Notes under the pieces: generated by a model
Database searches by the model: none
Told to the model about the DNA's origin: nothing
Seen by the model: the letters and a program-made list of their open reading frames with translations, nothing else
Program-made: the position numbers and the translations under genes
Assembly (NCBI GenBank): GCA_020283715.1
Contig: JAIQCW010000071.1
Coordinates: 1-64,000 of the forward strand
DNA from: Cytauxzoon felis
Taxonomy: Eukaryota; Apicomplexa; Aconoidasida; Piroplasmida; Theileriidae
DNA length: 64,000 nt
Reading direction: 5' to 3'
Part shown: positions 1 through 64,000 of the stretch, piece by piece
Layout: each line of letters starts with the position of its first letter
How positions within the stretch are numbered: the stretch's first letter is position 1

Positions 1-145
1 AGATTCCGTCACTTTAGTCCTATCTCGCCGAGATTAGGTTTATAACCTCAAGTGGAACCTGGAAGCGATCTATGGGAAGCGGAGGGGGAGGTAAATAGAG
101 AAGCTGACAGCAGGATGGACCTCGGGTGTATTGGACTTCAGTTGT
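1..145. repeat. Modular repeat, upstream intron of the TBC/TLDc gene (cut by the window edge)
   Basis: End of a reversed long module, then P, a hybrid core with a C2 head and C1 tail (GGAAGCGATCTATGGGAAGC), Tb and P. Confidence 0.85.
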
Positions 146-185
146 AATTTCTATTAGATATGATATAATATTGATGATATTATAG

Positions 186-3100
186 GAGCTTGAATTGACG
201 GTATGGAATATTGATATGGTAAAGTATGCATTATCTACTAATTATGAGAATTATGGTCCTATAAAAACGGCTATACAGAGGTATAAATATAGATATAGAT
301 ATATAAACATATTATTATTTTAGAGGTGTTCCAGATGTAATTAAGCATTATATATGGATGAAAGCTAATGATGCTGATAAATTTTATATTGATCATCCAT
401 TATTTTATAATAATTCTATATCTACTACATTTGGTGTATGTTTTATTATTTATTTATATAATTTATATATTATTTATATTCTAGTCTAATGTACCAGAAG
501 AATTAAGTGATTATTGTCCTACATTTTGTGGTGTGATGTAAATTATAAAATTATTTAATAATATTATAGATGGTTTATTAGGTTTACAAACTGATATACT
601 TGATATTACATTTGATTATGAACATATTGATGATAAATTTGGTAAGTTATGATGAAGAAAAAAAATTTCAAAATATCATTAGATGATTCAACAAATTTAA
701 GTTCTAGAGTAGCATCAGATTTAGGTTATAGTTATAATTTTTGGCATCATCCAATTGTAAATAATAGAATATATAATGAAAATAATACACCTATATCATT
801 ATATAATCGTATGAAATTATTATATGAAAAATTTATTAATCGTAAAAATAAAAAAAATTTAATGATAATTTAATAACAACAACTAATAATAATAATAAAT
901 CATTAAATGATTATTTAAATTTTATAAATATTGAAAATAAAAAACATAAAAAATTAATTAATATTGCTATTGTCAAAATGAGACAATTATCTATTGATAA
1001 AAAACCTATACAAAGAAATTCTGAAAAATCTAGACAATTATCTGATACATTTTTATCTAATACTATACAACCACCATTACATCATATTGAAATTATTAAT
1101 TATAATAATAATAATAAATCTATTAGTGATTATACAGGTAATTTTTTATATAATCATAATAATTCAATCTCAATTTCTAAACAACGTAAATTTAAATTAT
1201 GTAATCTATTCAAATGGATCGCTACTAAATGTAATCATACACAATCAAATAATAATCATATACAATCATTTAAACATAATAATACAATCAATAATAATTT
1301 CAATATTGTCACCAAATTCTCATCTATACCAGAAATCAATTCTAATCATAACTTACTCGAACATGATGATGAACTACCACAAATCATCATCACCAAACAA
1401 ACTTCAGATACACATAATAGCAATAAAGGTACCAGGTATGTTTTATCAATGTCTTTTCCACCTGAGGTCATACAACACTATCTTCGTTCCACTCGCCGTT
1501 ACACCCGAGGTTACATTCCTGCCGTCAGCTCCTCTATTTACTTCCCCTTCCAGCTCCCGTAGATCGCTTCCAGGTTCCACTTGAGGTTATAAACCTAATC
1601 TCGTCGAGATAAGTCTAAAGTGACGGAATCTATGTTTGTGAGGATATCTCAATGAATATAAACTCGAATTAAATGAGGATTGATAAACTCGATACAATCA
1701 TCAAAAACCTTTTAAATGAAGTATTGACATCAGAATTTCATCAAGTGGTCATTCCACAATCTTCATGAGTTTCCCCAGAAATGATGAAATTCCTTCAATT
1801 TTTAGAGGTAAAAATGAAGTAGTGAAATTAGCAGTACTAGACCTCAAGTGGAATACCCGCAGCTGATCTCAGGGAAGCGGAGGGGGAAGTAAATAGAGAG
1901 GCCTCCACGGCGAGTGGAAAATAGAGTAGGACTGTAACCTCAGATGGAGTATATTCATTTAATAAATATATATATAGTCGATCGTATAAATTATTGGATG
2001 TGACTGATTTTACTGTATTATTATCGGATGAGGGTAGGCATGAGGTTAAGCGTATATTATGGTGTTTGAATACATATTTTTCATCAAAGATTGAGTTTTT
2101 GCCTGTAAGTTTGAAATAATTAGAAATGATTATATATATATATAGTTGATACCATCATTATGTTGTATATTATTATTATACATGTCACCAGATACGGCTA
2201 TATGTGTATTATATAAATTGATGTTAAGAGCTAGTGAATCATCAGGATTAGATTGTGGTGAAAGTATTTTTATTTTGTTGTCGTAATGGTTTTGTAGTAT
2301 TTGTTAAATATGTATTAAGTGTGATGTTACGTCAATTACGTAAAGTAGTATTACATTTAAAATTATTAAATGTTGATTTAACTGCTTGGATTGCAAGAGC
2401 AATACAACATGGATTTTCTAAGATATTACCATTTGATTATATTATACGTATATATGGTGATTTTTTATTTGAAGGTGAAATAACATTATGTCGTTATTGT
2501 ATAGCATTAGTTAAATTTGCTAAATATAGATTATTAAAATGTAATACTAAAGAAGAAGCAGAAGAAATATTATATCATATTGGATTATATCCTGATTTAA
2601 ATATAGATCAAGTTACTAAATTAGCATATGGATTTAGGATTAAACATTTTGATGATAAATATAAATCATTTAATGCACCAAGTCCATATCTTGTACAAGT
2701 TAAAATGAAAACATTTTATCGTCCAAGATTATTTATGTCATCTTCTATTATTTGTAATGAAAATTGGGAAATGTTATGGTCATGGTTACATCCATCATAT
2801 AGAATATTTGTATGTCTTATCATTATTTATTCATACATACCATTTATTATCATTAGGATCCTGATAATATATACTCATCCGATAAACACGGAATCACACT
2901 CTTGGGACTTTTAAAATGTATCGAAAATAATAATAAATCACCAACACCCGCACTATTATTTATCAAAACAAATACATCCGATACATTCGGAATCTTCATA
3001 CCAAAACTATATAATCATAACAATAAAGGATCATATACACCCACAGATGGTTAGTCTAAATAATGATACATTAATACTCCACTCGAGGTCCAATCCACTT

Positions 3101-3752
3101 CATTCCCACTCGGCGTTACACCTTAGGTCGGTCCTGCAGACAGCTTCCTCTATTTATCTCCCCTTCCAGCTCCCGTAGATCGCTTCCAGGTATTACACTT
3201 GAGGTATTATATTCGTCATGATGTATTATTAGTGATATTATGGAGATACTCATGGGGCTATTATTAAATTATGGTGTTAATTAACCCTATATTCCCACAA
3301 TACCCCATAGAACTCATTTTGCCACGATCTCTGGGAATGGCTATACCGTTTACGGGAAGGTAATTGGAAGAGGCCACCACGGCGAGTGGAAAGATAAGGT
3401 TGTAACCTCAGGTGGAAATACGAGTGGAAAGGAGAGTTGTATGGACCTCGAGTGGAATGGTGTTATATCATTATATATATATATATATATTATAGTATTT
3501 GAGCAGCACAATTCATTTATATTTACAATGCGTAAGAAGATGAAGGTGTATAGATGGACTGGTAAAAGTTCTGTTGGTGTGACTTTGACAAAGAATCGTT
3601 TGATCGTAGGATCTAATAATCCAGCATTGATTTTGGATTCAACATTATCAAATGGTTATACTTCAAATTCAGCATCATACGACTCTCCATCATTAGTAGA
3701 AGGTAATGGACACTTCTCAATATCTATCATAGAGTTGTGGATTCTATTATAA
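186..3752 (+). CDS. TBC and TLDc domain protein (TBC1D24-like Rab-GAP homologue), 5' end outside the window
   Basis: Ten exons can be joined: 186-280, 324-435, 485-530, 570-641, 683-1435, 1978-2104, 2146-2257, 2298-2809, 2857-3049 and 3496-3752. The second exon starts the TBC fold (RGVPDVIKHYIWM). An Asn-rich low-complexity stretch of about 200 residues follows, then the rest of the TBC helices (KRILWCLNTYF; LPFDYIIRIYGDFLFEG). The C-terminus is a TLDc domain (SSDKHGITLLGLL; NRLIVGSNNPALILD; SISIIELW). TBC domains usually activate Rab GTPases and TLDc is linked to oxidative-stress protection and V-ATPase binding. The usual catalytic Arg and Gln fingers are not obvious, so it may be a pseudo-GAP like TBC1D24. 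Two introns (1436-1977 and 3050-3495, the second splitting the TLDc domain) carry modular repeats. The frame only holds if one base is added in the A-run near 851-857; with that base the total is exactly 760 codons. The first exon or exons lie upstream. Confidence 0.8.
1460..1955. repeat. Modular repeat with long module, TBC/TLDc intron
   Basis: Order: P', Tc', P', Tb', C2', P', LM (about 1585-1848), P, C1, Tc, P. It fills intron 1436-1977. Confidence 0.9.
3075..3450. repeat. Modular repeat, TBC/TLDc intron
   Basis: P', Ta', C2', P', then a divergent spacer with CCCCATA, a C3 variant with GTTTACGGG, Tc and two P units. It fills intron 3050-3495. Confidence 0.85.
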
Positions 3753-3805
3753 TATAAAAAATTATAATCTTAAATTCAAACCTTTATAATCTATTCCCTT
3801 ACACT

Positions 3806-4030
3806 ATTTCTACCTGAAGTTACTCCACAAGGTCGTCTTGTAGACAGCTCTCCACCTGAGGTCTTCCCACTAGGCGTGGTGGCCTCTCTATTTACCTCCC
3901 CTTCCAGCTCCCGTAGATCGCTTCCAGGAATTTTGCCACGATCTCTGGGAGTGGCTCTACTCTTTAGAGATAGATAATTGGAAGAAGCCGCCACGACGAG
4001 TGGAAGACGACGTTGATTGGGCTTCGAATG
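3806..4030. repeat. Modular repeat, intergenic
   Basis: Ta', P', Tc', C2', then C3 and a Tc-type tail. It occupies most of the 365-bp gap between the TBC/TLDc and transporter stops. Confidence 0.85.
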
Positions 4031-4117
4031 AGAGCTGACGACAGGACTAAGATGGGTGGATGAACCATCATTAGACAACTATTCTTAGTGACGTTTATTT
4101 GAGTATATAAATGTTAT

Positions 4118-5835: not shown

Positions 5836-6066
5836 CGTAGGTCGTCCTGCAGACAGCTCTTTTATTTACCTCCCCTCGGATTCCCGTAGATCATCCTCGA
5901 CATTTGTCTACCCGGAGGAACAAAGGAAGTTAACCCGGAAGAACAGGCTTCTGGTCTAGCAAATGTAACCTCAAGTGGAACATGGAAGCGATCTATGGGA
6001 GCTGGAAAGGGAAGTAAATAGAGAAGCTCTCTGCAAGAGGAAGTCAAGGTTGTAACCTCAGGTGGA
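5836..6066. repeat. Modular repeat with N units, intergenic
   Basis: Ta', C4', two N units, P, C2, a Ta-like tail and P, between the transporter start and the alveolin stop. Confidence 0.85.
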
Positions 6067-7823: not shown

Positions 7824-9344
7824 ATGTTTTTTAATGTCTATCGTCGATTAATACCTCATTTTGGTTACATGTCATTGGCGAGGTCATTTCATAGATCCTC
7901 AAGATGGCATGGTTTGACCACTTTTTACTTGTCTGATATCGGTGAAGGTATTTCCGAGGTAGAACTCGTTAAATGGGAGAAACAAGTGGGTGATTATGTA
8001 GAGGAGATGGAAAATGTGTGTACTGTACAAAGTGATAAAGCAGCCGTTGAAATTACCAGTAGATTTACTGGTGTTGTTAAAAAGTTACATTGCGATGTCG
8101 GTGATATTGTTCCCATAGGCAATGCATTGATGGATATTGAGGTTGAGGATGATCCCATCGATGAATCACCCAAAAAAACATTTGATCCTTCAATAAAATC
8201 ATCGAAAAAGACGACTGTAAGTTATTCAATATATTAAATTTAACATTTATATCACAGGATGCGCCAGAAGTACCACCAGGCGTTAGAAAAAGAGCAAAGG
8301 AATTAAATGTCGATCTTAGTAAAGTTACACCTACTGGACCAAATGGCAGAATAACACTAACTGATGTCGAAAACTTTGCCAGTGAGGTATGTCTACCTAT
8401 AACAAACGCAGTGGATGCTCCACCTGAGGTTACACCTTAACACTACTTCCATCACTGCCACGATCTCCGGGAGTGGCTCTACCCATTTGGGATAGGTAAT
8501 TGGAAGAGGCTCTACGCCGAGTGGGATCAATGGTTGTAACATCAGGTGGAGAGCCTTCGGTATGAATGGTTAATGTGACCTAAATTTATTATGAGTGACT
8601 TTTTATATCAATTATATTTAGGAATCATCTGTTGTTACTGGTGGTTTATCGCCTGATAAGGTTCGATTTACAGCTATAGGTTCAGCTATGGTAAAGTCTA
8701 TGGTAGCATCTGTATCAGTTCCCCATGTTACTGTTGGTGAGGATTTGGATCTTACGAATGTGGTTGCTTTATATCGTAAACGTAAGGCTCAAGATCCTAC
8801 AGTTAAATTGACGATTACATCTTATATATTGAAGGCTTTATCATTGGCTTTGAAAAGTTACCCTATATTGAATAGTAAATTTGATGGTGATGGATATTTA
8901 CAATTTGTTGAACATAATATTAGTATTGCTATAAATACTCCTCATGGTTTATTGGTGCCAAATATAAAAAATGTTCAAAATTTAAGTATTAGGCAGATAC
9001 AGAGTGAATTGAATAGGCTACAAAAAGACGCATTTGATAGAAAATTAGCTGTAGCTGATATTACTGGTGGTACATGTACCTTGAGTAATCTTGGCGCTAT
9101 CGGAGGTACTTATGTAGCTGCAAGACTATTTGATGGTCAAGCTTGTATCATTGCATTAGGTGCATCTAGATTACGTCCTCAATATGTAAATGATGGTGAT
9201 GATCTAAAACTCGTTCCTAGAAGTATTGCACCAGTTGGTGTTACCGCCGATCATAGACATATTGATGGCGCTACTATGGCACAATTCGCTAATGAATTCA
9301 AAAGATTACTAGAGAATCCTGAAGAATTAGATGCGCACTTTTAA
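7824..9344 (+). CDS. Dihydrolipoamide acyltransferase, E2 of the branched-chain 2-oxoacid dehydrogenase complex
   Basis: Exons 7824-8216, 8258-8386 and 8622-9344 give 414 residues. A short basic leader (about residues 1-30) looks mitochondrial. A lipoyl domain follows with the lipoylated lysine in QSDKAAVEI, then a peripheral subunit-binding domain (PPGVRKRAKELNVDL; GPNGRITLTDVENF), then the acyltransferase core ending with the catalytic DHRHIDGA. The enzyme passes acyl groups from E1 to CoA in the mitochondrion. In other apicomplexans, which lack a mitochondrial pyruvate dehydrogenase, this complex makes acetyl-CoA from pyruvate. Intron 2 (8387-8622, ends approximate) is swollen by a compact modular repeat at 8430-8556. 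Confidence 0.95.
8430..8556. repeat. Compact modular repeat, E2 intron
   Basis: The simplest complete element: P' (CCACCTGAGGTTACA), C3, a Tc-type tail, then the inverse end TTGTAACATCAGGTGG. The matching inverted ends suggest one mobile unit. Confidence 0.88.
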
Positions 9345-9382: not shown

Positions 9383-9506
9383 ACCGCTCCACCTGAGGTC
9401 CAATCCACCTATTTTCGTCTTGCAGACAGCTTCTCTATTTAGTTCCCCCTTCGCTTCCCTGAGATCAGCTACGGGTACCACTTGAGGTCCAGTACTACTT
9501 ACATCT
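9383..9506. repeat. Modular repeat, intergenic
   Basis: P', Ta', C1', P', just downstream of the E2 stop. Confidence 0.88.
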
Positions 9507-9529
9507 TCACCACACAACACCACAATTGT

Positions 9530-9672
9530 GTGGCATACCCCATTTTCCCATATTCATTATTTTCATTCCGTACACTTCCAGTAATTTATAGTCCATATTA
9601 ATACAATTGAAGGATGAAGTATAGTTGTATGAAGGTATATAAGTATTAATATAGAGTATTATTATAATATAT
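9530..9672. repeat. Second repeat family, copy 1
   Basis: About 140 bp (GTGGCATACCCCA ... CAGTAATTTATA ... ATACAATTGAAGG) that recurs as a reverse complement at about 62938-63085. It shares no modules with the main family. Confidence 0.75.
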
Positions 9673-9842
9673 ATACTATATAACTACTAACATGATATGA
9701 AGTATACTACCTATATAGTATAGTAGTAGATTTATATAAATAATTACATTTCATAAAATTATTATAATATTGTACAAAGGTTGTAAATGATTGAATAAAG
9801 GTAATTATAGTATTTAATTCAATTAATTTGTATATTATTAGA

Positions 9843-9975
9843 GGATTGGACCTCAAGTGGAAATGGAATACCTGGAAGCGATCTATGTGAGCTGGAAGGG
9901 GAGTTAAATAGAAGAGGCACCACGCCGAGTGGAAGAGGTGAAGATAGTGATTGGACCTCGAGTGGAGGCCTAATG
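9843..9975. repeat. Modular repeat, intergenic
   Basis: P, C2, Tc, P, just past the end of the gamma-tubulin complex gene. Confidence 0.88.
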
Positions 9976-12087: not shown

Positions 12088-12362
12088 ATACCTGAAGTTA
12101 CAACTTTATCTTCGTCTTGCAGACAGCTTTCCACTCGAGGTTACAACCTTGTCTTCGTCCTGCAGACAGCTCTTCTATTTATCTATCTCTAAAGAGTAGA
12201 GCCACTCCCAGAGATCGTGGCGGTAGAGAAGATAGTGATTGGACCTCAAGTGGAACCCGCAGCTGATCTCAGGGAAGCGGAGGGGGAGGTAATTGGAAGA
12301 GCTGACGGCAGGACGACCTCAAGTGGAAGAGGTGAAGGTAGTGATTGGACCTCAAGTGGAAG
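12088..12362. repeat. Modular repeat, intergenic
   Basis: P', Ta', P', Ta', C3', P, C1, Tb, P and a second P, between the gamma-tubulin complex gene start and the ankyrin-DHHC stop. Confidence 0.88.
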
Positions 12363-12419: not shown

Positions 12420-15400
12420 TTAATATGTGAGAGTCCAGAAGTTGGTGATATTTAGGAGGCATTTTTTGGTACTGAGTCCTTTAAAGTCCCAGAGTCTATT
12501 ATTGACATTTCCATTGAATTTAATGCGAATATACTGAGGTTTCTTTAGAAATTCATAGAATGTTACATCTGTTATCATTGACCTTACAATTCTAAACCAT
12601 AAGTATACCACAAATGCTAACCAAATGACGTTCGTACCAATTCCAATTATTACATGACTCAAATCCCAAAGTAAATTAAACCTCATATTAACTATCCTCT
12701 GACTAAAATATTTATACAACAAATAATAAAAATGAACTATCGCCAATGATAAACTCGTCACAAATATAAAAAATGAACGCTGATTATTACGACCAATACA
12801 ATTATCAACCCATGCACAATGATGATCCTGATGCCTAAATATTATCATTATAAACACAAATCTAATAAGTACTCCACTCGAGGTCCTTTCCAACTCTCTT
12901 CCACTCGCCTCCACCGTTGGTCTTGCAGACAGCTCTTTTAATTACCTATCCCTGAAGGGTAAAGCCACTCCCAGAGATCGTGGCAGTGTGGAGGGTAGTG
13001 AGGATGTAACATCAAGTGGAATACCCGCAGCTGATCTCAGGGAAGCGAAGGGGGAAGTAATTAAAAGAGCTCCATGCAATGGGAAAGAGAGTAGGATTGT
13101 AACCTCAGGTGGATTTGACTTCGGATGGAGAGTTGTTATGATTGTAAACGTACATGATACAGTGTCCGCATATACCGCAGTGGTGTGTTCGTTTGAATTT
13201 GACCATATTGCATGTGATGCATACATTTTTGATATTATTTTGTTTTATGCAGTTTGTTATAGATTCTACATAGATTGGTAATAGACGTGATTGTCTTTCA
13301 GTTGCTACAAGATTATATAGACCACTCATTTCTAATTGTATATTTCTACATTCTTCTCTACATAATTGTATAACATTATCTAATGGATTATCTAATCCAA
13401 CTTGTAAATCATAATATGTATTGAATGGTTCCATTAATGGATCATTATATTCTAATTGAGGGAACCAATAATTCATAGTATAAGAATCTCTATTTGTACA
13501 ATAGTAATCATAATTTACCATACGCTGACGACGCTCCAATACACTCAACATATTCTCATATACACCCTCCTTTAGAACTGCACCCCTCATTGAATCTTGT
13601 TCTATCGAACTAAAATAAATTAATGAATCATAAACACGAAATAACCAAGTTAATATATGCTGTCTACTCCACCTGAGGTCCAATCCAACTCTCTTGGTCC
13701 TACCGTCAGCTCTTCTAATTACATATCTCTAAAGAGTATAGCCACTCCCAGAGATCGTGGCGATGTCAACCCCTAAGAACAGGAAAATTCTACCCGGAGG
13801 AACAAAGAATGTTAACCCGGAAGAACAGACTTCAAGTGGAATACCTGGAAGCGATCCACGGGAGCTGGAAGGGGAAGTAAATAGAAGAGGCACCACGGCG
13901 AGTGGGAAGACCTCAAGTGGAAGAGCTGACGGCAGGACCAAGAGAGTTGGAACGACAAGTGTAAGAGGTGATGGTAATCGTTTGATTATGTGACTAACTT
14001 TGATACATGAGATTGCGATGGTATGATTGTTTTTTTGGCGATACCTGGATCGCTCATGAAGGCTGAAGTATATGATTGAGAATATATTGAAACTAACTTG
14101 AGATCCAGAAGCATTGTGAGATGAGCCAATTAATAATCCAAAGATCGAGGAGTACATCTCCGACAGTGTTTAATAATTCATTATACATATTAAAATATAA
14201 GACTAAATTTATTATAGCGATGATCCAGTAATATACGGGATAGAGACTCCTTAATGAATACATACGTCCACAGATACGATATTGACAACGCCATAACTAT
14301 AAAAAAGTTGTATGATATGATTATTAGCAAACTTACCCTCAACAATGTGTATTGTAAATAATTCTGTTTCATCAAACATATACCAAGAGGTGTCTTCTCT
14401 TTATTTGTAGTAGCAATTGCAGTAGTATCAATCAGTGATATCGAACCCTTCTGACAAAGGAATGCTATTGTAGATTCATCACCACCATGACAAGCATGAT
14501 GTAATACCGTATTACCCAAATGATCACGATGACCCAAATTCGCACCCCTACTCAATAACCACTGTACAACATATAAAGTACCCCTCCTACATGAATGCAT
14601 CAATGCCGTACGACCCTAAAATATCATGATACTCAAAAGGATACCACAAATGAACTGTTATCTATTCCACCTGAGGTCCATTCCAACTCACTTGGTCCTG
14701 CCGTCAGCTCTTCTATTTATCTATCTCTAAAGAGTATAGCCACTCCCAGAGATCGTGGCGAAGATAATGAGGAAGAACAAAAGATGTCAACCCGGAAAAA
14801 CGTGATATAGTTAATGGACCTCAAGTGGATTACCCGCAGCTGATCTCAGGGAAGCGAAGGGGGAAATAATTAGAAGAGCTCTCTGCAAGAGAATGCAAGG
14901 TGGATTGGACTTCGGATGGATATAATCTTTGATGATAAACTGTTATGTAATTGGTTTATTAGTAAACATACGAGGCTATCTTGTTCTTCTAGTGAGACAC
15001 CGTTGAGGTAGAGGTATTCGAGTATGTGTAATGTTGAGATGATATTATCTTCCATGAATTCAGATGCAGCGATAAGGAATGGTGTCATTTGTTTTCGATT
15101 TTCATGTAACAGTAGACTTGTTCCACATCGATTTAATAATAGAGCAACAATTGATGCATTGGATGATTTTATTGCGAAATAAATGGGCGTCTCCAAATTT
15201 ATATCGTCTGGATAATGCGGATCACAACCACAGTCCAATAATATATCAACCAATTCACTATTACCACAATAACATGCTGTAGAAATAAATATAATAAATG
15301 AACACAAAGAATACTGCATCTGATATGTTGAAATTCCACTTGAGGTCCAACCCAACTCTTTTCGTCCTGCCATCAGCTCTTCCAATTACCTATCTCTAAA

Positions 15401-15930
15401 GAGTAAAGCCACTCCCAGAGATTGTGGTAATGTTTTGATAGTGATTGGACCACAGGTGGAAGTGGAATACCTGGAAGCGATCTACGGGAGCTGGAAGGGG
15501 AGGTAATTAGGAGAGGCCTCCACGGCGAGTGGGAAGACGAAGTGGATTGGAAACTGGGATTGACTTCATGTATATAGTAGCATTCGATAGTCAACTAACC
15601 CCAATGTAGAGCGCTTACTTCGTCTAGTTGTTGAGTATTTTTCTCATTAATGAGAGGTGTGAGTATATCTTTTAGTCTTCTATGGTCTTTATTGTTAGCT
15701 GCTGATACAATTAATGACTATAGATATAAAAGTATGAGAATGGTAATGATCATTCAACTAACCTCTAATTGTAGATATTCAATACTTGTAGAATTGAATC
15801 TACTATTCAACATCGTATCAACTCTATTAGAGAGTACACATTCAAAATCATCCAAGCTTGGATAATTTTTTGTTGAGACATCCATCTCATCAGCAGTTGT
15901 TGATTTATAGCTGTCGTAATATTTTTCCAT
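12420..15930 (-). CDS. Ankyrin-repeat DHHC palmitoyltransferase (Akr1/ZDHHC17-like)
   Basis: Eight exons (15930-15763, 15717-15600, 15276-14972, 14615-14337, 14296-14098, 14062-13999, 13609-13154, 12834-12420) total 668 codons exactly. Residues about 60-310 are ankyrin repeats (SALHWACYCGNSELVDILLD; GRTALMHSCRRG; HLGNTVLHHACHGGD). Transmembrane helices follow, with the typical SDPG motif after helix 4 region, then the zinc-binding CITCNMVKFKRTHHC and the catalytic DHHC in HQDHHCAWVDNCIGR, then two more helices. DHHC enzymes attach palmitate to cysteines of membrane-associated proteins, usually at the Golgi. Four introns (15277-15599, 14616-14971, 13610-13998, 12835-13153) hold modular repeats, and the last splits the DHHC zinc finger. 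The start is the ATG at 15930; an earlier start by way of an unseen exon is possible. Confidence 0.9.
12872..13130. repeat. Modular repeat, ankyrin-DHHC intron
   Basis: P', Tc', Ta', C3', P, C1, Td, P. It lies in the intron that splits the DHHC zinc finger. Confidence 0.9.
13667..13975. repeat. Modular repeat with N units, ankyrin-DHHC intron
   Basis: P', Tb', C3', two N units, P, C2, Tc, P, Tb. The outer parts (CCAACTCTCTTGGTCC and its inverse) form terminal inverted repeats. Confidence 0.9.
14660..14930. repeat. Modular repeat, ankyrin-DHHC intron
   Basis: P', Tb', C3', an N-like unit, P, C1, Ta, P. Confidence 0.9.
15325..15560. repeat. Modular repeat, ankyrin-DHHC intron
   Basis: P', Tb', C3', P, C2, Tc, and an imperfect final P. 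Confidence 0.9.
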
Positions 15931-20159: not shown

Positions 20160-20395
20160 ATTACACCTGAGGTTACATTCCTGCCGTCAGCTCTTCCAAT
20201 TACCTATCCCTAAAGGGTAAAGCCACTCCCAGAGATCGTGGCGGTAGAGAAGTTAGTCATTGGACCTCATGTGGAACCCGTAGCTGATCTCAGGGAAGCG
20301 GAGGGGGAACTGAATAGAGAAGCTCCATGCAATGGGAAGGAGAGGTGTATTAGAAGATAGTGGATTGTACCTAAGGTGTAGCAGTAACTATGTTC
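20160..20395. repeat. Modular repeat, intergenic
   Basis: P', Tb', C3', P, C1, Td and a degraded P, between the VAP stop and the RPB6 start. Confidence 0.88.
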
Positions 20396-21504: not shown

Positions 21505-21975
21505 TACTCCACAGTAGGTCGTCCTGAAGGTAACTTTCCACCTGAGGTCAGTCCTGCCGTCAGCTCTTCCAATTACCTCCCCTTCCAGCTCCCGTAGATC
21601 GCTTCCAGGTTCCACTTGAGGTTATAAATCTAATCTCGACGAGATAAGGATAAAGTCACGAAATCCATGTTTGAAAGGATATCTCAAAGGATATAAATTG
21701 GAATGAAGAGACGATGATAAAACTCAATACAATCATCAAAGTCCTCTTCAATGTAGTATTGACATCAGATATTCATCCAATAATCAATGAGATATCTTCA
21801 TGAGTTTCCCCAGAAATTCAAGATTTCCGTCAAATTTTGGTAGTAAAAATGAATGTAGTGTAATAGTAATACAGGACCTCAAGTGGAATACCCGAAAGTG
21901 ATACGGGAGCTGCAAGACGACCTCAGATAGATGCTCCACGCTCAGTGGAAGAATATGTTGTAGAAGACAGTGATT
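21505..21975. repeat. Modular repeat with long module, intergenic
   Basis: P', Tb', C2', P', LM (about 21625-21870), P, a shortened core, and a Tc-like tail, upstream of the VAP gene. Confidence 0.88.
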
Positions 21976-41144: not shown

Positions 41145-41250
41145 CCGTAAGCGATCTCCGGGAGTGGTTCTGCTCTTTAGAGATGACTAAATAGAAGAGC
41201 TCCATGCAATGGAAAAGATGTAACCTCAGGTGGAAAGCTATCTACCGGAC
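41145..41250. repeat. Modular repeat, intergenic
   Basis: C3-like core, Td and P, between convergent stops. Confidence 0.8.
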
Positions 41251-49339: not shown

Positions 49340-49455
49340 CTACATCTGAAGTTACAGCCCTGATGTTCCACCTGAGGTCGTCTTGCAGACAGCTCTTTCA
49401 ATTACTTCCCCTTCCAGCTCCCGTAGATCGCTTCCAGGTAGTCCACTTGATGTCA
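49340..49455. repeat. Modular repeat, intergenic
   Basis: P', P', Ta', C2', P', after the PARP/B-box gene stop. Confidence 0.88.
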
Positions 49456-49629
49456 ATCATTACATTCACCTATCTGATCTTATTCCATGTTGGTATGAAT
49501 TCTAAAGTCTATAAATTATGGGGACTATCATGGGGTTTATTATCTGAATAATGGGGTTTATTATTTAGATTATAGGGTGGATTATTATTATTATTGTGTT
49601 TTTTATCCCTACATTCCCCCACTACCCCA

Positions 49630-49795
49630 TCTTCGCCACGATCTACGGGAGTGGCTCTACTCTTTAGAGATAGGTAATTAAAAGAGCTGTCTGCAAGACG
49701 AAGATAAGGCTGTAACCTGGAGTAGAGAGCTGACGACAGTGGGAAGAGGAGGTGTAGAGAAGATGTAGTGATTGGACCTCAGGTGGAAAGATTGT
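49630..49795. repeat. Modular repeat, intergenic
   Basis: C3, Ta, Tb and P, just past the stop of the M16 protease gene. Confidence 0.88.
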
Positions 49796-49812: not shown

Positions 49813-52800
49813 TTAATTACTGTGTATTTTATTTTTGGAATTGAGTTCTTCAGTGGTGTGTACAATTCTGGTCCAGAGGTTATGTTGATCGAATCCATAA
49901 ACTTGTGAGTTAATTAATAATCGTACATCATCGGGTGTTATGCGATTTAATACAGTTTTAAAATCTGTTAATGCTTTAGAATTTTTAATTGGTTGTTCTA
50001 AAAGTTGAATTCCAGACATTTGTCTAACCCAATAAAATGGTTGTTTACTTTCTTTTGTCATTTTTGATAACAGTTGATGTTTTGCACGATCTATATGAAA
50101 TTCATTAAATGATGCCGTACCATTACGTATCTCCTCAAGTATTCTCTTAGCCTCATCCAATATAATCAACGATTTATCAAATGAACTGTGAATAGATATC
50201 ACAAAATAACCTGCAAATTGAACATCATACATAGTAAACTCTACATTCGATTCATACGTCAAATGCTTCTCCGATCTCAACTATAAATATATAATATAAA
50301 CAAACAGAAACCAGTCCGCCTTTCCACCCGATGTTACATCCACCTCTATTCCCACTCGCCGTGGAGGCTTCCTCCAATTACCTATCTCTAAAGAGTAGAG
50401 CCACTCCCAGAGATCGTGGCAGTTATGTAATTAGTACATGACCTCAAGTGGATTACCCGCAGCTGATCTCAGGGAAGCGGAGGGAGAAGTAAATAGAAGA
50501 GGCTCCACGCCTAGTGGGAGACAAGGTTGTAACCTCAGGTGGAGTGCTGTCTATGAGACGAAGAGATGTATAAGACTTACGATTGTGAATGTGCGATTAT
50601 TGATTAGTTCTTGTAGTAGGCATGTGGCTGCTTTAGGGAATGCTGGATGTAGCCATAAATTTTTTCTGATTTTTGCGAGTATTTCTAAATATATATATGA
50701 ATTTAAATGGTATAAGCATACTCATTCTATCTAATGCACCTTGAACACTAAGATCATGTCTACAGAAATATATTTTATATAATTTTTAAAACATACATCA
50801 ATGTATTCTCCAATACATCAGCCATATGAGTACCATCAGGTAATATACCACTCGAATTCGGAGCATGACCAGATAATAAAACAATCGCACGCTCCTGATT
50901 GTCATTTATATATATAACCTTATCCCTATCTTCCTCTTCACCACTCGAGGTCCAATCCAACTCTGTTCCATTCTGCGTTGTACATGAAGTCGTCCTGCCG
51001 TCAGCTTCTTTATTTACTTCCCCCTTCGCTTCCCTGAGATCAGCTACGGGTTCTCCACTTGAGATTAGATCCTCAACACCTTCTCCATCGCCACGATCTC
51101 CGGGAGTGGCATTACCGTTTACGGGGAGTGAATTAGAGGAGGCCTCCACGGCTAGTGGAAGAAGAGTTGGATTGGACCTCGGTGGAGAGGCCTCCACGGC
51201 GAGTGGAACAGAGGTAACCTCGGGTGGAAGTGGAACATTGATAGTATTAAATTCTTGTTGAATGAATGTTTTTGGTATAAGATTGTATTTGAGATTATCA
51301 TTTTGTCTTTGTGGTAGATTGATGGTAGCTAGATAATTACGTATGAGTGGTTTAAGTATATTTAAATCTATATTTCCTGAGATTGAGATTTCGATAGAAT
51401 CACGATTAAAGATTGAAGATAGATCATTTTGTACATTTGATAATGTTGTTTGATTAATAAAATCATTTGTAAAATTATGGAAAGATAATAGACCATTACT
51501 CATAGAATGTATTAAATCACCAATACCATATGCCTATTAAAATAGAATATAATGATTTTAAAAAAAATATTTTATATAAAATTACATTTAAATCTTGTTG
51601 ATAAATAATACGATCCCTTTTAATTTTATCTAATGCACGTATAAATGCATCAGGTTCTATTTTATGATATTGTATTAAATGGTATAAAATTTGTAATGAA
51701 TTTTCTAAATTATTATTAATTTTTATATTAGAATATGGAAATGTTATTTCAATAATAAAATAATCTTCAATCATATTTATCATTACATCTATTAAATGTC
51801 TACTACAAAACATTTCAACTTCTGTACGTGTTAATTTACCTATAGCACCACCTTCCATCATAGATGATGCTGCAATTAATAAATTTATTTTTTTACGTTT
51901 TAATTCTTCTATATTATTTATATTATAATTTAATGGTATTAAACATCTTATACATGTAAATTGTACATCATCATATTTAAAATTAATTTTTAAACCATTT
52001 GATAATTGATATAATTTTATTGTATCATCATTAATAGAATATAATTCTAATGATTTATCTAATGTAGACATTATAGGTTTATCTGATTGTATCATAGAAT
52101 ATGTATATTTACCATCTTCTACACCTTGTATATCTTTAGAAGATAATAAAATTTTCTTCTCTAAATCACTATAATCATTATAATTAACCTCTGTAGCTTT
52201 AGCATATTCTAATTCTGTTAATAAACAATGAGATTCTTTCAAATCATCAATATATTTTCTCATAATACATGTCAAATCATCACTAAAATTAAATAATTCC
52301 AACTTGTCATAAATACTCTCCTTTGGAGATAAAATCGGAGAAAAATCTGGTCTTTTACCATCCAATTTCATATTTATTATCGCATTTTTCTGACAATTAG
52401 TCAATAATTTAGATGGTACCTTAATTTATTTTAAATAATAATGATAAATAAAATACCTGAATTGGAGTAAATGATGACCCATCCGATGATTCACACGCCC
52501 TATTGAAAGTATCCAATAATACCGATGAATCTATAGAAATTATAGATGAGAAATGAAGTGAATACTCGACCTGATGTCCAATCCTACTATTATTTCGTCC
52601 TGCCGTCAGCTTCTCTATTTATCTCCCCTTCCAGCTCCCGTAGATCGCTTCCAGGTTCCACCTGAGGTTAATTCCTAATCTCGACGAGATATGACTAAAG
52701 TGACGAAATATATGTTTGATACGACATCTCAATGAATATAAATTGGAATGAATTGAGGTTTAGTAAACACGATACAATCATCAAATTCCTTTTCAATGAG

Positions 52801-55384
52801 ATATTAACATCAGTAATACATCCGATAGTCATTCCACAATCTTCATGAGTTTCCCCAGAAATTCAGATTTTCCATCAAATTTTGGAGGTAAAAATGAAGG
52901 TAGTGTAATTAGTGATATGACCTCGAGTGGAGACCTCAACTGGACTACCCGTAGCTGATCTACGGGAAGCGGAGGGGGAGGTAAATGGAGGATGCATACA
53001 CGGCGAGTGGAAGACAAGTATTGGACCTCAGGTGGAGTAGTTGTTATATATCTTCGTTATTTGACATACCGATATCGATTGGTGTTGAGCAAATGAGATG
53101 CAGACCATTGACATTACCATTGACCCATTGAAATAATTTAGAAGAGACATCATTAACATCATCGATATGTAATTTAGAAATAACATCAGAGATTGTATTT
53201 TTTTCATAATCAGGGCTCATATAAATACGACCACAAGAATTAGCATCCATAATTCCGGTAATTATATCCTGATTATCAACCCTAGTATTATCTAATCTGC
53301 TAACATCCAACATTATAGAATCTTTAACCAATTGTAATATGTCATCATTAATACCAGTAGATATAAAATGCTTAATCTGAGATATAACATTACAAATCGC
53401 CTCACTCCAAGTATCTAAAGGTGATTTAACCTCCAATGAACGAATCCTACAACCCTCATTTATACAATCAAAATCATTAGCCTCTACAGATTCATACAAT
53501 CTAGATCCACGACCCAATATGTCAAAATTCAAAGATAACGCCCTATATACAATCTTATTCATAATAGAATTGTACATGTCACCCCATGTTCTCGTCTCAG
53601 GTATCGGTAACTTTCTCACAATCTCCAATATAAAATTAGACATACGCTCGTTCCTCCATACAGAAATCATAGGACCTATAGAATATACATATATATATCG
53701 AACACTTCCATTTCATCTGAGGTCTAATCCAACTTTCTTCGTCCTACCGTCAGCTCTCCACCTGAGGTCCGTCTTGCAGACAGCTCTTCCAATTACCTAT
53801 CTCTAAAGAGTATAGCCACTCCCGGAGATCGTGGTGATGATAGAGGTGAAGATGATGTAACCTCAAGTGGAAGTGGAACCCGTAGCTGATCTCAGGGAAG
53901 CGGAGGGGGAAGTAAATGGAAGAGGCCACCACGGCGAGTGGAAAAGAGGTGGACGTAGAATATAGATTGGATCTCGACTGTAGGATAGTGTAATTTTGTA
54001 TACCTGTTTGTTCCCAATCGTGTTTTGCGGGTGGTAGTTCTCTTTTTCTGAAGAATAATGGAATATAAAATGATAGACAAACGTTTGTTTTACGGTATCT
54101 CGGTAAATATTCATGAGTGATTCTAGTTGTGGATTTTTTACATCCTTTAATTTACCAAAGATTCTGGTGATGCTATCAATAGCGACATCTTTATCAATGT
54201 CACCAACAATAAAGAGATGTAAATTAGATGGTCTATAGTGAATTTTATGATAATTCTTTAAATCTTCTACAGTATATTTCTTTAACATTTCCAAATCTCC
54301 TATTGGAAATCTCTTTGACAGTCTGAAGATAAATTTTTTTTAAATAGTAAATACAAACCTATTTTCAGAATGTAACGCCCTCACTGTGGCACAATTTTTG
54401 CGATATTCCATAGTGTTTATTATACTAGCCTCAGATAATATAGCTCTACGTTCCTTTTCTACACGCATCTCATTGAATTGCGATGGAGCCTTATGTATTG
54501 AAATATCAAGAAATCAACAACAAACCTCTACGACATCTAATAGTGTATCCAATGCCTTTTCCAGAGACTCTTTTGTTGTATTGGTACCCTCCATCAATGA
54601 TGGACAAGAAGTATAAAAGACAGTATGATGAAAGTCCGTAAATGCATTCGTACGCACATCAAAACCTATCAAATTATCACGCTTCCTATAAATGAAAATT
54701 GTATAACATATATAAACAATGTTTTTTGCACCGTCTATATCCACTCATTCTACCTGTGGTCCAATCCTACTATTCTTCCACTCGCCGTGGAGGCCTCCTC
54801 CAATTACCTATCTCTAAAGAGTAAAGCCACTCCCGGAGATCGTGGCGGAGGTAGTGAGGATGTAACCTCAAGTGGAAAACCCGCAGCTGATCTCAGGGAA
54901 GCGGAGGGGGAAGTAAATAGAAGAGCCACCACGGCGAGTGGAATGAAGAGGTGGATTGGACCTCGAGTGGAGAGCTGTCTGCAAGACAAAGATAGTAAGA
55001 TTGGATCTCATTTATAGGAATGATGTGGTGTTTTCTATTTCAACAAACCTGCTTCCCATGTATGTGACATGTTCGCAGAAGTGTGCGATACCTTTTTGAT
55101 GTTCTAATTCATCTGCTGAACCGCTGTGTACTTCTAGATATGCTTCAAATCTTTTATTATGATTATCATTTGGTAATATGGTATAATAGAGGCCATTTTC
55201 TAATTTACCGCGAGTTAAATTTGGATGAACTTGCAACGGTCTCGAGTACTAAAGTGATTATTAAATACAGCAATAGATACACGTAGTTTAGAAACAATAG
55301 TTTTTTAAAAAAAATTAGAGGAATGGTGAAAGCTGTGGCTTTATAAAGCGTAAGGTGAAGGGTACAAGAGATTAGCAACTCCAT
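49813..55384 (-). CDS. M16 metalloprotease, stromal-processing-peptidase-like (probable apicoplast)
   Basis: Thirteen exons run from 55384 to 49813: 55384-55283, 55248-55049, 54685-54526, 54489-54359, 54322-54094, 54047-54004, 53653-53070, 52530-52457, 52419-51586, 51533-50797, 50759-50722, 50684-50581, 50280-49813. They total 1235 codons including the stop. A hydrophobic leader precedes ENGLYYTILPN and the inverted zinc motif HFCEH. The following YMGSR / KRDNLIGF / TNAFTDFHHTVFY is typical of plant-type stromal processing peptidase, which removes transit peptides in plastids. Two further M16-like domains follow (LNFDILGRGS; KINFKYDDVQFTC), and the end has LTYESNVEFTMYD. Residues about 886-984 in exon 10 are an in-frame modular repeat (50940-51235). 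Introns 54686-55048, 53654-54003, 52531-53069 and 50281-50580 hold other copies. The exon 6 boundaries are the least certain. Confidence 0.88.
50328..50575. repeat. Modular repeat, M16 protease intron
   Basis: P', Tc', C3', P, C1, Tc, P and a Ta-like tail. Confidence 0.9.
50940..51235. repeat. Modular repeat translated inside the M16 protease exon
   Basis: On the coding strand: P', Tc', P', Tc', GTTTACGGG-type C3', P, C1, Tb and P. It is open in the gene's frame for about 98 codons. Confidence 0.9.
52567..53035. repeat. Modular repeat with long module, M16 protease intron
   Basis: P', Tb', C2', P', LM (about 52675-52920), P, P, C1 variant, a Tc-like tail and P. Confidence 0.9.
53707..53980. 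repeat. Modular repeat, M16 protease intron
   Basis: P', Tb', P', Ta', C3', P, C1, Tc and a degraded P. Confidence 0.9.
54750..55012. repeat. Modular repeat, M16 protease intron
   Basis: P', Tc', C3', P, C1, Tc, P, Ta and a partial P. The ends (CCAATCCTACTATTC and its near-inverse) are inverted repeats. Confidence 0.9.
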
Positions 55385-58273: not shown

Positions 58274-61200
58274 ATGGAGGTACAGGTCAATGCGAGTGTG
58301 ATTTCAGCGGAAAATGATGACATTGCAATAGACAACAATAAATATTTTGAGTTATTAAAAGATGAGGTATTGATGGGTGATTCTATAGCATTGTATGCTT
58401 TGAATAAGATACATTTGGTGGCTTATGAATTGGGTCCTATATTTTCTAGAGATCATTTGGTACCATTTTTGGCGAGTAAGTTGTTATTAGATTTTAATAA
58501 TAATATATTATAGATGTTCAAGAAACGGCTGATATGACGACATTGTCAGTATTATGTGATACTTGGTATACGTTATCTAAATATGTTGGTGATGGTTCAA
58601 ATTTGGTACCTATAGTTAATTCATTGGAATTTTTACTTAGCCAGGAGGATCCTGATATAAGAAATCATGTATGTTTAATTTTTTTTATGAATATATAAAT
58701 ATTGATTAGGCTATTGATGTATTAATGAGAATAATTGAGGATCATTATTCTAAATATGATCCAAATTGTGGATCGGAATTATTTCAATTAGTTGATAAGG
58801 TTGTATGTCCTATGATTGGACGATTAGTTTCAAGTTTGTTGATATAATGTATGATGATAATAATAAATTATCAGGTGAATGGTTTGCTGGTAGTACTAGT
58901 GCTTGTTTTTTGATACCAAAGGTTTATAAATATGCATCAGAGGCTTGTCATATCGAATTAAGACAGTAAATTTAAATTATTTTTTTTCATGAAATTTATA
59001 TTAAATTTTTTTTATAGAAATTTTCAACAATTATGTGAGACTGAGATGTTAACTGTAAAATTAGCTGCTGCAAAGAATCTAAAGAAAGTAATTACTATAG
59101 TTGAATTAGAACATGCTATATCTATGTTTTGGTTAGTATTAAAGAATATGTCTGTAGAATCACAAGAAGATGTTAGATCATATGCTGTTGAAAGTTGTTT
59201 AGAATTTGCAAAAAGATGTACACCTGCACAAAATTTACATTTTAATTACCCAATATTAAAAGCAGCAGCTGAAGATAAATCGTGGAAAATTAGAGAATTT
59301 GTTGCTAGATTATTTCAAAAGGTATCTTTTATATATATAATATCTTAATTTAATTAAAGGTTTATGAAACTTTTGGTGAAGATGAAGTACGTATACATTT
59401 ATTAGATACACATTTAAATTTATTAAATGATTATAATGATTATGTTAAATCAGCAGCTATTGAATCATTTTCTGGATGGTCTGGTATATTATCATTAGAA
59501 TTAATCGAATTATATATACCCATATTGGATAAATTATCTAAAATATCATATAGAGATGATAGAAGAAATGTATGTAAAGTATTGGCATTATTCGCCATGA
59601 AACTTAAAAAAAATGATGCTAGACGTATCGTTTATCCCACTATGCTACATCTATTTAATGATCAATTAATGGACGTTAGATTATGGTTCGTTTATACAAC
59701 ACAATATTATAACCATAAATATACCATCTCCACTCGAGGTCTAATCCAAGTCTTCACCTCTTTTCGTCCTGCAGACAGCTCCTTTATTTATTTCCCCCTC
59801 CGCTTCCCTGAGATCAGCTACGGGTAATCCACTTGAGGTCTCCACCTGAGGTCCAATCACTGTCTTTCACTTCTTCATTTTTACTTCCAATATTTGAAGG
59901 AATCTCATCATTTCTTGGGAAACTAATGAAGATATCTCAGTGACTATTTGATGTATTTCTGATGTCAATACTTCATTGAAAAGGATCCTGATGATTGTAT
60001 TGAGTTTACTGAATATCACTTCATTCCAATTTATATCCATTGAGATATCCTCACAAACATGAATTCCATCACTTTACCCTTATCTCATTGAGATTAGGTT
60101 TATAACCTCAAGTGGAACCCGTAGCTGATCTCAGGGAAGCGGAGGGGGAAGTAAATAGAGAAGCTGACGGCAGGACTGACCTCAAGTGGAATATGAAATG
60201 TTTGATATATGTATTTAAACATTTACATTTATAGTGTTGTACAAAATATACATTTAATTTGTAATCGTGAAGAATTTAATGGTATAATTGGTGAAAAATT
60301 ATTAGAAACTGTTGATATTGTATTAGATAATCCACAATGGAGACATCGTTTAATTATTGCTGAACAATTAATCAGTTTTTTTAGTCATTTTGGTCCAGCA
60401 ATATTTGAAGAAAATTTCTCTAATGCATTGTTTATATTATTATTAGATAGTGTTTGGAAAGTACGTAATGCAGTTTTAATCAGTCTAGAAAAAATTTGTA
60501 ATGAATGTGGAAGTATTTGGGCTGTTAAATTTATATTAAGTGAATTATTAATCATTTATTTTAATCCTGAACAATCACAATATATCAAAAATCATATATT
60601 ACCACTCTCTTATTCATTTAAAATTATCATTATACAAGCACTTGTTGTAAGTATATTATTATAAATATAAATTTAATATATTACAGGCTGTAGCAAAATC
60701 AATTGATGTTGAAAATGCTATTAATCATATCGTACCATTACTAATTAAAGCAACAATGGTATTAAATATATATCATTAATCATAATATTATACAGGACCC
60801 TATACCCAATATCAGATTCGTAGCATCCAATGCAATCAGCAACCTCTTCCTCATATACAAGAATGAAAACCCAGAATTATTCCTACAAGCAAAGTGGTAT
60901 GTTGATCATGAAGATGATTTACCACACTTGAGGTTACATTCCTGCCGTTCCACCTGAGGTCTTTCCACTCGCCGTGGTGGCCTTCTCTATTTACTTCCCC
61001 CTCCGCTTCCCGTAGATCAGCTGCGGGTTCCACTTGAGGTTACATCCTCTATACTTTCGCCACGATCCCCGGGAGTGGCTATACTCTTTAGAGATAGGTA
61101 ATTAGAAGAAGCTCCATGCAATGGCAAAGAGAGTATGACTGTAACCTCAGGTGGAGAGCTGTCTGCAAGAGAAGGAGAGTTGGATTGGACCTCGAGTGGA

Positions 61201-62827: not shown

Positions 62828-62922
62828 ACACCTTAGGTCCAATCCACATTTCCTCCACTCGCCGTGGTGGCCTCTTCTATTTACTTCCCCCTCCGCTTCC
62901 CTGAGATCAGCTACGGGTGAAA
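62828..62922. repeat. Left repeat arm near the second antigen fragment
   Basis: P', Tc', C1', ending GCTACGGGT, just past the Dim1 stop. Confidence 0.85.
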
Positions 62923-63085: not shown

Positions 63086-63115
63086 CATAATTCTGGGGTA
63101 TTGTAGTGTTTTTAC

Positions 63116-63775
63116 TATTATTATTTTATTAAATATTATAAGAGAGGGAATAAATGGACAGAAATTGGTGGTGCCCTTGCTAATCAAGACCCGGAAAGTA
63201 ATGATGTTGCTTCTCTACTTGATACTGAATTTGGTACAATCATCGACAAATATGAAGTTAAGCTTGAACAGGCTCCGGGGGCAAGTGAAACTTCAACCAC
63301 ATACAAAGCAAGTCCGCAAGATGGTGCAAGTGGTCAAATTACTGTTACAGAAGTACGACCTAATAGTACCTCTTATAAAGGTTTTAAACATGAAGTTGGT
63401 ACTAATAAGGAGATCAATCGTATGACGGTACATGGGCAAGCAATAGAGGGTATTACAGAGTTACAAGGTGGTAGAACTATTACTGGTAAACAATTCGTAT
63501 ATGTATATTTTCATAAGACTGAAGATACAAAATATGAAAAGCCATATTTAATATGTTTGACAGATAGTACGGGTAATACTAAAACATGGTATAAACGTGA
63601 CAATAAACCGGGTGGTGGGTATGAATGGAAGAATGCGTCCGAGTTTAATGGTAAAAATCCAGAACAGATCTCCGGATTTGAAACTGAGCTCGGTAATATT
63701 AAAAGTGCACTTAATCCTCCTGGTGGTACTAAAGATAAAGGTTATACTAAATTAGTACCTATTTTAAATTATTAA
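63116..63775 (+). pseudogene. Fragment of a secreted-antigen-like gene family
   Basis: An open frame of about 215 codons that lacks a start codon and signal peptide. It aligns with the nested fragment at 45461-46050: YKGFKHEVG, FVYVYFHKTED, KPYLICLTDS, TWYKRDNKPGGGYEW. The first residues (KRGNKWTEI) repeat the KR..W motif seen near the end, so the piece seems to be one unit of a tandem-domain protein. It is flanked by modular-repeat arms at 62828-62922 and 63785-63892, and on the left by a separate 140-bp inverted-copy repeat. It is likely a decayed or captured fragment, not a gene. Confidence 0.55.
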
Positions 63776-63784
63776 TACTTGTAG

Positions 63785-63892
63785 CTCCCACCGACAAATG
63801 GTAGCTGGAAGGGGAAATAAATAAAAAAGCTGTCTGAAAGACGAAGAGATGAGGGGAATATGGAGGTAGTGATGTAACCTCGAGTGGAGAAC
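63785..63892. repeat. Right repeat arm near the second antigen fragment
   Basis: A C2-like core with a damaged head, Ta (GCTGTCTGAAAGACGAAG) and P. Confidence 0.82.
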
Positions 63893-63935
63893 TCATACTT
63901 CGTTCGAATCACTTTGTTTCTTCGTTATTTCGTAG

Positions 63936-64000
63936 GTTACCATTGTGTAAAGTATATGAATTTGCCGCAATTTGTATCGTTGTGTATTTCTTGGCATTTA
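63936..64000 (+). CDS. Possible exon running off the window
   Basis: After a pyrimidine-rich stretch and a CGTAG acceptor-like site, two plus-strand frames stay open to the end of the window. The repeat just upstream is placed as in the large introns elsewhere, so this may be an exon of the next gene. There is too little sequence to name a product. Confidence 0.2.

Follow-up and report, generated by a model that had tools for sequence, protein, structure and literature searches.

The first 64,000 nucleotides of contig JAIQCW010000071.1 of the piroplasm Cytauxzoon felis (assembly GCA_020283715.1), here called the window, are rich in a palindromic repeat built from a small set of modules. Its slots are fixed, and the variable part is which of a few alternative hairpins fills each slot. 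The unit of exchange is the hairpin: hairpins stay whole, and neighbouring modules combine at random. We consider it probable that the repeat is a palindromic selfish element, once or still spreading through the nuclear genome, with its hairpins reassorted as units. The host assembly spans 8.62 Mb in 181 contigs, and the window (positions 1–64,000) was analysed together with 240 kb of the same genome (C4 1–120000, C9 1–80000 and C26 20001–60000). The resulting 304-kb sample, ∼3.5% of the genome, is 1.05–1.4 times denser in sites than the whole genome, as judged by exact genome-wide word counts; counts below refer to this sample unless the window or the genome is named. Genes in the window encode proteins with IMCp, lipin, triosephosphate isomerase (TIM), E2 and other domains (Pfam), and several are split by introns, which marks the window as nuclear DNA of a eukaryote, alveolate-like by its IMCp domain. 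That domain and the FAINT domain noted below are the best pointers to lineage, and a protein search with a 727-aa ORF gave no hit at 1e-20.

An initial annotation of the window had proposed a modular repeat system of about 45 sites. The system is real, and its listed parts were recovered. The joint, GTAAATAGAAGAGCT, matched 44 times in the window with at most two mismatches, compared with 0.20 matches expected from shuffles, and has 596 exact copies in the genome, of which 303 are forward and 293 reverse (the reversed word has none). Four core types (A–D) gave 79 cores in the window and none in the reversed window; after grouping, with sites <450 bp apart merged into one, these formed 43 sites. 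The same scans found 347 cores in 174 sites in the sample and none in its reverse. Strict core patterns matched 2610 times (C) and 2300 times (B) genome-wide, with reversed controls at zero, and scaling by the C word, the B word and the joint gives an estimate of ∼3570–4710 sites in the genome. A profile built from canonical copies covers 16.3% of the sample and nothing in the reversed sequence. Tail hairpins were found in the window and the sample, and an N unit was present in the window, identified by a word match that carries no chance control. The long module (∼230 bp) has eight window copies of 214–229 bp; in the sample it gave 16 hits of at least 120 bp, one being the query and the other 15 matching it at 76%–84% identity. 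The hybrid cores named in the initial annotation exist as well (A head with B tail at 58–86; a mixed core at 47437–47465), and such hybrids are rare (five of 176 A/B cores). The B word had no match in the genome_contigs collection. A match in viral_contigs (L035 214–231, an IMG/VR contig) was rejected; it is an isolated C-like core with no other cores, about what chance would give for 17 fixed bases by our own estimate.

The part of the proposal that did not survive is that the modules recur in different orders and orientations. Order and orientation are nearly fixed: among 173 pairs of neighbouring cores <450 bp apart, 152 are head-to-head and 21 are arranged otherwise. The head-to-head pairs are mostly B–C (86) and A–C (35), followed by A–B (11), B–B (seven), A–D (five) and B–D (five); the exceptions to the grammar are one D–D, one C–D, and one C–C pair whose second core is atypical (five mismatches). 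Two arrangements dominate. In 121 of the 152 pairs, C faces A or B across a median gap of 38 bp (28–45 bp in 71 of the 121). In another 18, A or B faces A or B, at a spacing of 278–395 bp in all but one (125 bp), and six of the seven such pairs in the window carry the long module, which in the window also lies beside a D–B pair and a lone A. Each half-element runs from core hairpin through joint and tail hairpin to P words. Aligning 71 canonical copies gave, from the left, outer P words, tail hairpin, joint, second C hairpin and C core, then a centre with one P, and on the right an A or B core, joint, tail hairpin and outer P words. The usual unit is a pair of head-to-head half-elements, either C against A/B around a short centre or A/B twice around the long module.

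What varies is the content of these slots. Of 347 halves, 328 carry the core loop GATC[CT]NNGGGA closed by one of a small number of stem pairs. Tail hairpins with a GCA loop have the stems GTCT/AGAC (65), CCAT/ATGG (20) or CTCT/AGAG (12), and the other tail type has CCAC/GTGG around a five-base loop. The second C hairpin, scored in 135 of 141 C halves, takes the forms CTC-TTTA-GAG (94), CCG-TTTA-CGG (17) and CCC-TTCA-GGG (seven). Its stems are 97.8% Watson–Crick paired, compared with 78.6% when the 3′ halves are shuffled among copies, so stem swaps preserve pairing. Matching stems are likewise kept in 112 of 113 GCA-loop tails; a separate figure for tail pairing was computed on hairpins chosen for at least three paired positions. 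One tail, GTCT-GCA-GGAC (16 copies), has a T–G wobble, while the opposite A–C type is nearly absent; this could reflect either RNA-like tolerance or exchange with a GGCAGGA tail.

Linkage between modules stops at the hairpin. Normalized mutual information (MI) between core head and core tail is 0.81 (0.005 when permuted; n = 176, with the five hybrids included), and between the two tail stem halves it is 0.99 (n = 286, since 42 of the 328 halves had no listed tail), the latter partly by construction in that the pattern admits mixed stems only in GCA-loop tails. Between modules, values fall to the permuted level: joint and tail, 0.070 versus 0.066 (n = 286); the bases just before the tail and the tail, 0.063 versus 0.068; core and joint, 0.089 versus 0.087 (n = 156); core and tail, 0.015 versus 0.022; second C hairpin and joint, 0.148 versus 0.123 (z 0.9). 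Modules 3–6 bp apart are independent, whereas stem halves are tightly linked. One exception is the two bases touching the tail (MI 0.317 versus 0.056 permuted). Others are pairings of the linker with the base that opens the joint, of C versus A/B cores with joint type, of the joint with the next bases (p 0.010), of A/B core with joint (p 0.047) and of B5 with the loop (p 0.056).

Independence extends across each site. Tail types on the two sides of a site are unrelated (n = 103, p 0.58), and 102 of the 103 elements tested have different module combinations. The idea that the paired arms co-evolve as one long hairpin found no support: the arms of one site resemble each other to the same degree as arms taken from different sites (147 sites, p 0.46). 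Two of the 147 sites are above the cross-arm 99th percentile and one, at 35877–36168 in the window, is above the cross-arm maximum. That site appears to have arisen by recent inverted duplication or by conversion. The statement in the initial annotation that the grammar is conserved and the content shuffled is borne out by this combination of linkage equilibrium between nearby modules, arms no more alike than unrelated arms, and near-unique module combinations.

We then asked where the copies lie, using gene calls from a coding-potential hidden Markov model trained on the sample itself, with no annotation behind it. The 174 sites sorted into 52 intron-like, 22 exonic and 100 other; the first TIM site was filed as other, so the intron count misses some. 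Conserved domains place several copies in introns directly. An element separates Lipin_N from Lipin_mid and LNS2 in the lipin gene, the lipoyl from the catalytic domain in the E2 gene, and residues 2–93 from 94–306 of the class II transfer RNA (tRNA) synthetase profile, each with GT/AG at the junctions. The TIM gene has three exons matching residues ∼1–35, 36–189 and 189–246 of solved TIMs, with an element in both gaps. Of 127 element gaps, 50 gave an intron solution under a splice model (score at least 10), versus 13.7% of 635 shuffled-flank controls, a rate at which up to ∼17 of the 50 could be chance. The model also found solutions in 44 of 56 short gaps, the set on which it was trained and which it scores well, and in six of 23 long element-free gaps. 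Introns with an element have a median length of 417 bp (45 introns), compared with ∼45 bp without (44 introns). Donor and acceptor sites fall beyond the modules, at distances that vary (left flank 28–203 bp and right flank 39–142 bp, 10th–90th percentile, 45 introns).

In gene flanks, the repeat is about four-fold sparser in divergent promoters, with 2.3 sites per residual kb in tandem and convergent gaps and 0.61 in divergent ones. Counting gaps of at least 100 bp after removal of element length, 84 of 114 tandem and convergent gaps are occupied versus 12 of 32 divergent gaps (p 0.00026); with at least 250 bp left, the figures are 48 of 64 versus 12 of 26 (p 0.013). Convergent gaps alone showed no significant difference from divergent gaps at this larger size (p 0.19), and orientation relative to tandem genes showed no bias (34 versus 32). 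Motif 2 of Theileria parva promoters occurred eight times in divergent gaps, as did its reversed word, and motifs 1 and 3 were few; these motifs were not used further.

The repeat is not confined to intergenic DNA; copies also occupy introns and coding frames, a point that the initial annotation had left unremarked. Twenty-two of 173 sites tested sit in frames that are open throughout and flanked on both sides by same-frame coding-model sequence, in 16 open reading frames (ORFs); the call requires at least 120 coding-model bases on each side and excludes the synthetase case. All 22 read in the C-to-A/B direction and in one frame, giving ATPGDRG and DLREAEGEVNR-like peptides. In 95 noncoding canonical copies this frame is open in 37, opposite-strand frames account for 22 counts, and one other frame is open once. 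At the resulting odds of 37/60, the chance of such agreement is ∼2 × 10⁻⁵ for 22 of 22 sites, ∼10⁻⁴ for 19 of 19 and ∼4 × 10⁻⁴ for 16 of 16 (the last by our own arithmetic); the 22 sites share 16 ORFs, and two of them are tandem copies. The exonic frame also has the fewest stops in noncoding copies (1.22 per element versus 1.87–4.26), and 42 of 91 noncoding copies have their A/B loop in phase with it (p = 0.007).

Pfam matches were found in three of the eight element-bearing ORFs scanned: a CAF1B/HIR1 propeller, XPG_I (EXO1-like) and FAINT. In the CAF1B-type protein the element falls within a long insert that separates matched parts of the propeller, and in the EXO1-type protein it lies beyond the matched nuclease part. 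The repeat appears to add sequence to proteins. A 2254-aa open frame with no Pfam match (L029 384–7145) holds four elements, all in the same frame. A 1307-aa frame (C9 ∼28795 and 30463; L023/L024) holds two that are 97% identical over 315 bp, likely a tandem duplication inside the gene. By codon position (first/second/third), the fraction of non-consensus bases in non-exonic copies is 0.087/0.021/0.025 for C (n = 122), 0.043/0.063/0.026 for B (n = 115) and 0.050/0.031/0.034 for A (n = 52). In exonic copies it is 0.038/0.030/0.015 for C (n = 19) and 0.055/0.075/0.022 for B (n = 20), and the third position is highest only in exonic A (n = 4).

The modules are well preserved. Cores with zero to two mismatches make up 50 of 56 A, 116 of 135 B, 136 of 141 C and 14 of 15 D, although these spectra end at the scan threshold, which admits only near-consensus cores. 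When up to 10 mismatches were allowed, A rose from 58 hits to 79 and B from 140 to 168, with the types overlapping. Only two profile hits lie >250 bp from a recognized site. Across the 71 canonical copies, identity is 90%–95% in cores and P words and 78%–80% in joints, and 60% in the spacer after the C core (51% for shuffled letters). The DNA between modules thus drifts, while the modules themselves are maintained or copied anew.

We read the repeat as best described by a non-autonomous, dispersed element resembling miniature inverted-repeat transposable elements (MITEs) or Rickettsia palindromic elements (RPEs). On this selfish-element reading, copies would spread through a process that recognizes or copies hairpins, with a MITE- or RPE-like outcome, and their content would be reshuffled through template switching or very short ectopic conversion, each exchange beginning and ending at the base of a hairpin. 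Alternatively or additionally, general exchange may be followed by selection against mispaired hybrid hairpins. Template switching, ectopic conversion and hybrid loss would each account for our data, which also allow for the suggestion in the initial annotation that modules are exchanged through recombination or template switching. Selection would have removed insertions in promoters and most of those in exons, the surviving exon insertions being ones in an open frame. A more specific version, which we put forward tentatively and regard as possible, though not the favoured outcome, is that hairpins are heritable cassettes kept whole by a structure-driven process (template switching or conversion bounded by hairpin bases). 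They would be reassorted to linkage equilibrium across thousands of dispersed, fixed-slot copies, and those copies would be spliced out, left untranslated or translated according to where they land.

Several observations weigh against a mobile selfish element. We infer the movement of copies from one genome, in which no empty site was seen. Diverged copies are few, which is odd for old selfish DNA, and the drift of spacers beside conserved modules also fits in-place upkeep by function or conversion. Only 10 of 15,051 site pairs are at least 90% alike over at least 150 bp, implying no recent burst, and neighbouring sites share tail types no more often (0.266) than random sites (0.271 ± 0.020), so local conversion has left no sign. 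Covariation is absent from the first C hairpin, which hardly varies (93.5% paired versus 93.2% shuffled). The 297 outer ends have no base consensus outside the last P, being ragged strings of P words and tails; the arms are inverted, yet sharp common ends of the MITE terminal-repeat type were not found. No consistent target duplication was evident by eye in the first 60 of 129 flank pairs, which were unscored and whose true ends are uncertain. Among enzymes, the integrase (rve) and MULE models had no match (Helitron and DDE_1 searches carry no weight, their controls being silent). PF00078 (RVT_1) hit the genome in a single ∼1010-aa open frame (L033; C56 ∼73693–74436), which from its motifs we take to be telomerase-type. 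With that as the sole RVT_1 frame, no retroelement reverse transcriptase of the kind associated with short or long interspersed nuclear elements was found. No longer parent element was seen in the 304 kb, where no search was aimed at one.

Other explanations account for parts of the pattern. A functional per-gene element, such as a bidirectional 3′-end or gene-boundary signal (terminator, insulator or processing hairpin) retained at almost every gene and in noncoding DNA that is transcribed, would explain why exactly one site occurs in 142 of 183 gaps of at least 250 bp between coding blocks, compared with 50 ± 6 at random. It would also suit the scarcity in divergent promoters, the conservation of modules beside diverging spacers, the small number of diverged copies and a palindromic layout that works both ways. 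The one-site count is confounded, however, and we set it aside: element-free introns are too short to be counted, and many gaps exist through the element itself. Sites in introns of the TIM, lipin, E2 and synthetase genes and in coding frames are misplaced for a gene boundary. We dropped this idea as the lead after Pfam showed several of the gaps to be introns, and now think it unlikely. A structured noncoding RNA, or an RNA-level element in transcripts, finds support in folding. Among 23 of 68 canonical elements folded, median RNA z-scores against dinucleotide shuffles were −2.25 and −2.99 on the two strands (14 and 15 of 23 below −2), whereas 24 of 285 element-free stretches gave a median of 0.05, with three below −2. 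Covariation in the second C hairpin and the GCA-loop tails points the same way, but excess folding alone does not separate RNA from single-stranded DNA. Rfam covariance models gave no match above threshold in the 64 kb (one sub-threshold snoRNA hit, E 3.7, lies within a long module), orientation relative to tandem genes shows no preference, and with halves on opposite strands a transcript would carry one sense and one antisense half. We rate this reading very unlikely.

Chances are slimmer still for introner-like elements that create introns on insertion. Many copies do sit in introns, but the variable distance from modules to splice sites in the 45 introns, together with copies in gene flanks and coding frames, is not what such elements would leave. 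Descent from a protein-coding repeat, with the ATPGDRG … DLREAEGEVNR frame ancestral and noncoding copies derived, would account for the single frame of all 22 exonic sites and for its paucity of stops elsewhere; against it, change is not concentrated at third codon positions, and hairpin swaps alter the peptide wholesale, making this a highly improbable origin. Least probable of all is that copies are decayed fragments of one long conventional transposon ordered by deletions, the outcome that the initial annotation had itself named as fatal to its proposal. A nearly fixed order does point to one ancestral layout. Yet content is unlinked, diverged copies are few, just two profile stretches stand apart from sites, and the 304 kb, under no dedicated search, revealed no parent.

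Mosaics of a few palindromic modules are familiar from bacterial interspersed mosaic elements and yeast mitochondrial GC clusters, which resemble the repeat in this respect but are bacterial or mitochondrial. We know of no comparable fixed slot grammar in either.

By behaviour, the repeat works most like two described systems, although we claim membership in neither. RPEs are reported as short (∼150 bp) bacterial palindromic repeats, about half of them in frame in genes with a conserved peptide, with ten families and 44 insertions in R. conorii (PMC10969869). Here too a palindromic repeat lies in frame within unrelated coding genes and specifies a conserved peptide. The present repeat differs in occurring in the nucleus of a eukaryote and in thousands of copies, with a layout in two halves, shuffling at the level of hairpins and residence in introns; the likeness is one of behaviour. 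Organelle palindromes of Volvox fill intergenic and intronic DNA, nest in one another, often have TTTA loops, are confined to non-ORF regions and are described as inert in the nucleus, according to the part of that account available (PMC2670323). A TTTA loop occurs in 121 of 135 second C hairpins here, whereas the Volvox repeats belong to organelle DNA, and the same part mentions no two-half grammar for them. Like MITEs and introners, the latter reported with inverted repeats in the alveolate Amoebophrya (PMC7789003), the copies are short inverted-repeat elements in introns and gene flanks; no target duplication or constant ends were seen in them, however, and their splice sites are not at fixed positions.

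A survey of 64 apicomplexan genomes reports T. parva, T. annulata, T. orientalis and C. felis to be free of transposable elements, having discarded the MITE candidates as probable false positives (PMC9141347). Published drafts are given as 9.1 Mb with 31.8% G+C for C. felis and as 39%–42% G+C for T. orientalis. Introns are short in T. parva and T. annulata, with modes of 55 and 80 bp, the modal intergenic length is 105 bp, and the motifs described in them, in the available part of the report, are other ones (PMC2612703). Among the listed titles and abstract openings from the open-licence literature, none described such a repeat. It has the look of a kind of selfish DNA not described before, in a group believed to contain hardly any. 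It covers 16% of the sampled sequence, and the introns that hold it are long. Its hairpin-limited linkage makes the origin of mosaic repeats testable from population or long-read data. The sites in the window are listed in Table 1.

Table 1. Repeat sites in the window, with cores given by type and strand
Position	Strand	Composition	Context or remark
45..115	+	half-element whose core is a hybrid (A head, B tail)	partner on the left not found; near window edge
1457..1948		A-, long module, B+	
3078..3456		A- C+	intron-like
3835..4046		A- C+	
5844..6066		D-, N unit, A+	
8419..8550	+	single C half	intron of E2 acyltransferase gene
9388..9966		B- and A+ halves with 395 bp between them, no long module	between convergent E2 and gamma-tubulin complex genes
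12114..12360		C- B+	
12873..13113		C- B+	
13668..13937		C-, N-like unit, A+	
14666..14891		C- B+	intron-like
15335..15532		C- A+	intron-like
17066..17475		D-, long module, B+	lipin intron
18671..18895		C- B+	downstream of lipin
20162..20335		C- B+	
21537..21622	-	A half	then long module 21630-21853
22567..22671	-	single B half	in 302-aa open coding frame (Rad21/Rec8 match under Pfam cut-off)
23121..23428		C- A+	
24036..24245		A- D+	intron-like
25125..25343		C- B+	
25987..26268		C- B+	
27018..27442		A-, long module, B+	
29018..29189		A- C+	between exons 1 and 2, TIM gene
29788..29941		B- C+	between exons 2 and 3, TIM gene
32297..32589		D- B+	
34409..34930		C- B+ B+	three cores
35877..36168		B- D+	arms near-identical well into flank, unlike other sites
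41148..41234	+	single C half	
42012..42539		A-, long module, B+	intron splitting class II tRNA synthetase domain
43524..43787		A- C+	in frame within 486-aa synthetase ORF 42623-44080 (-), between hydrophobic signal-like N terminus and OB domain
45392..45474	-	single A half	
46046..46117	+	single B half	
46623..46888		C- B+	
47404..47833		mixed A/B-, long module, B+	intron-like
49367..49699		A- C+	
50352..50543		C- B+	intron-like
50940..51228		B- C+	inside 252-aa open coding frame, minus strand
52598..53036		A-, long module, B+	
53742..53941		C- B+	intron-like
54778..54987		C- B+	
59729..60190		B-, long module, B+	intron-like
60923..61200		B- C+	
62855..62917	-	single B half	
63797..63908	+	diverged half without recognized core	not counted in the 43 sites; the 304 kb hold two such profile hits

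The repeat also stands out in base composition. Element cores with 60-bp margins have 46% G+C, compared with 31% in coding and 29% in other noncoding sequence, and the G/C skew flips from negative to positive across the canonical element.

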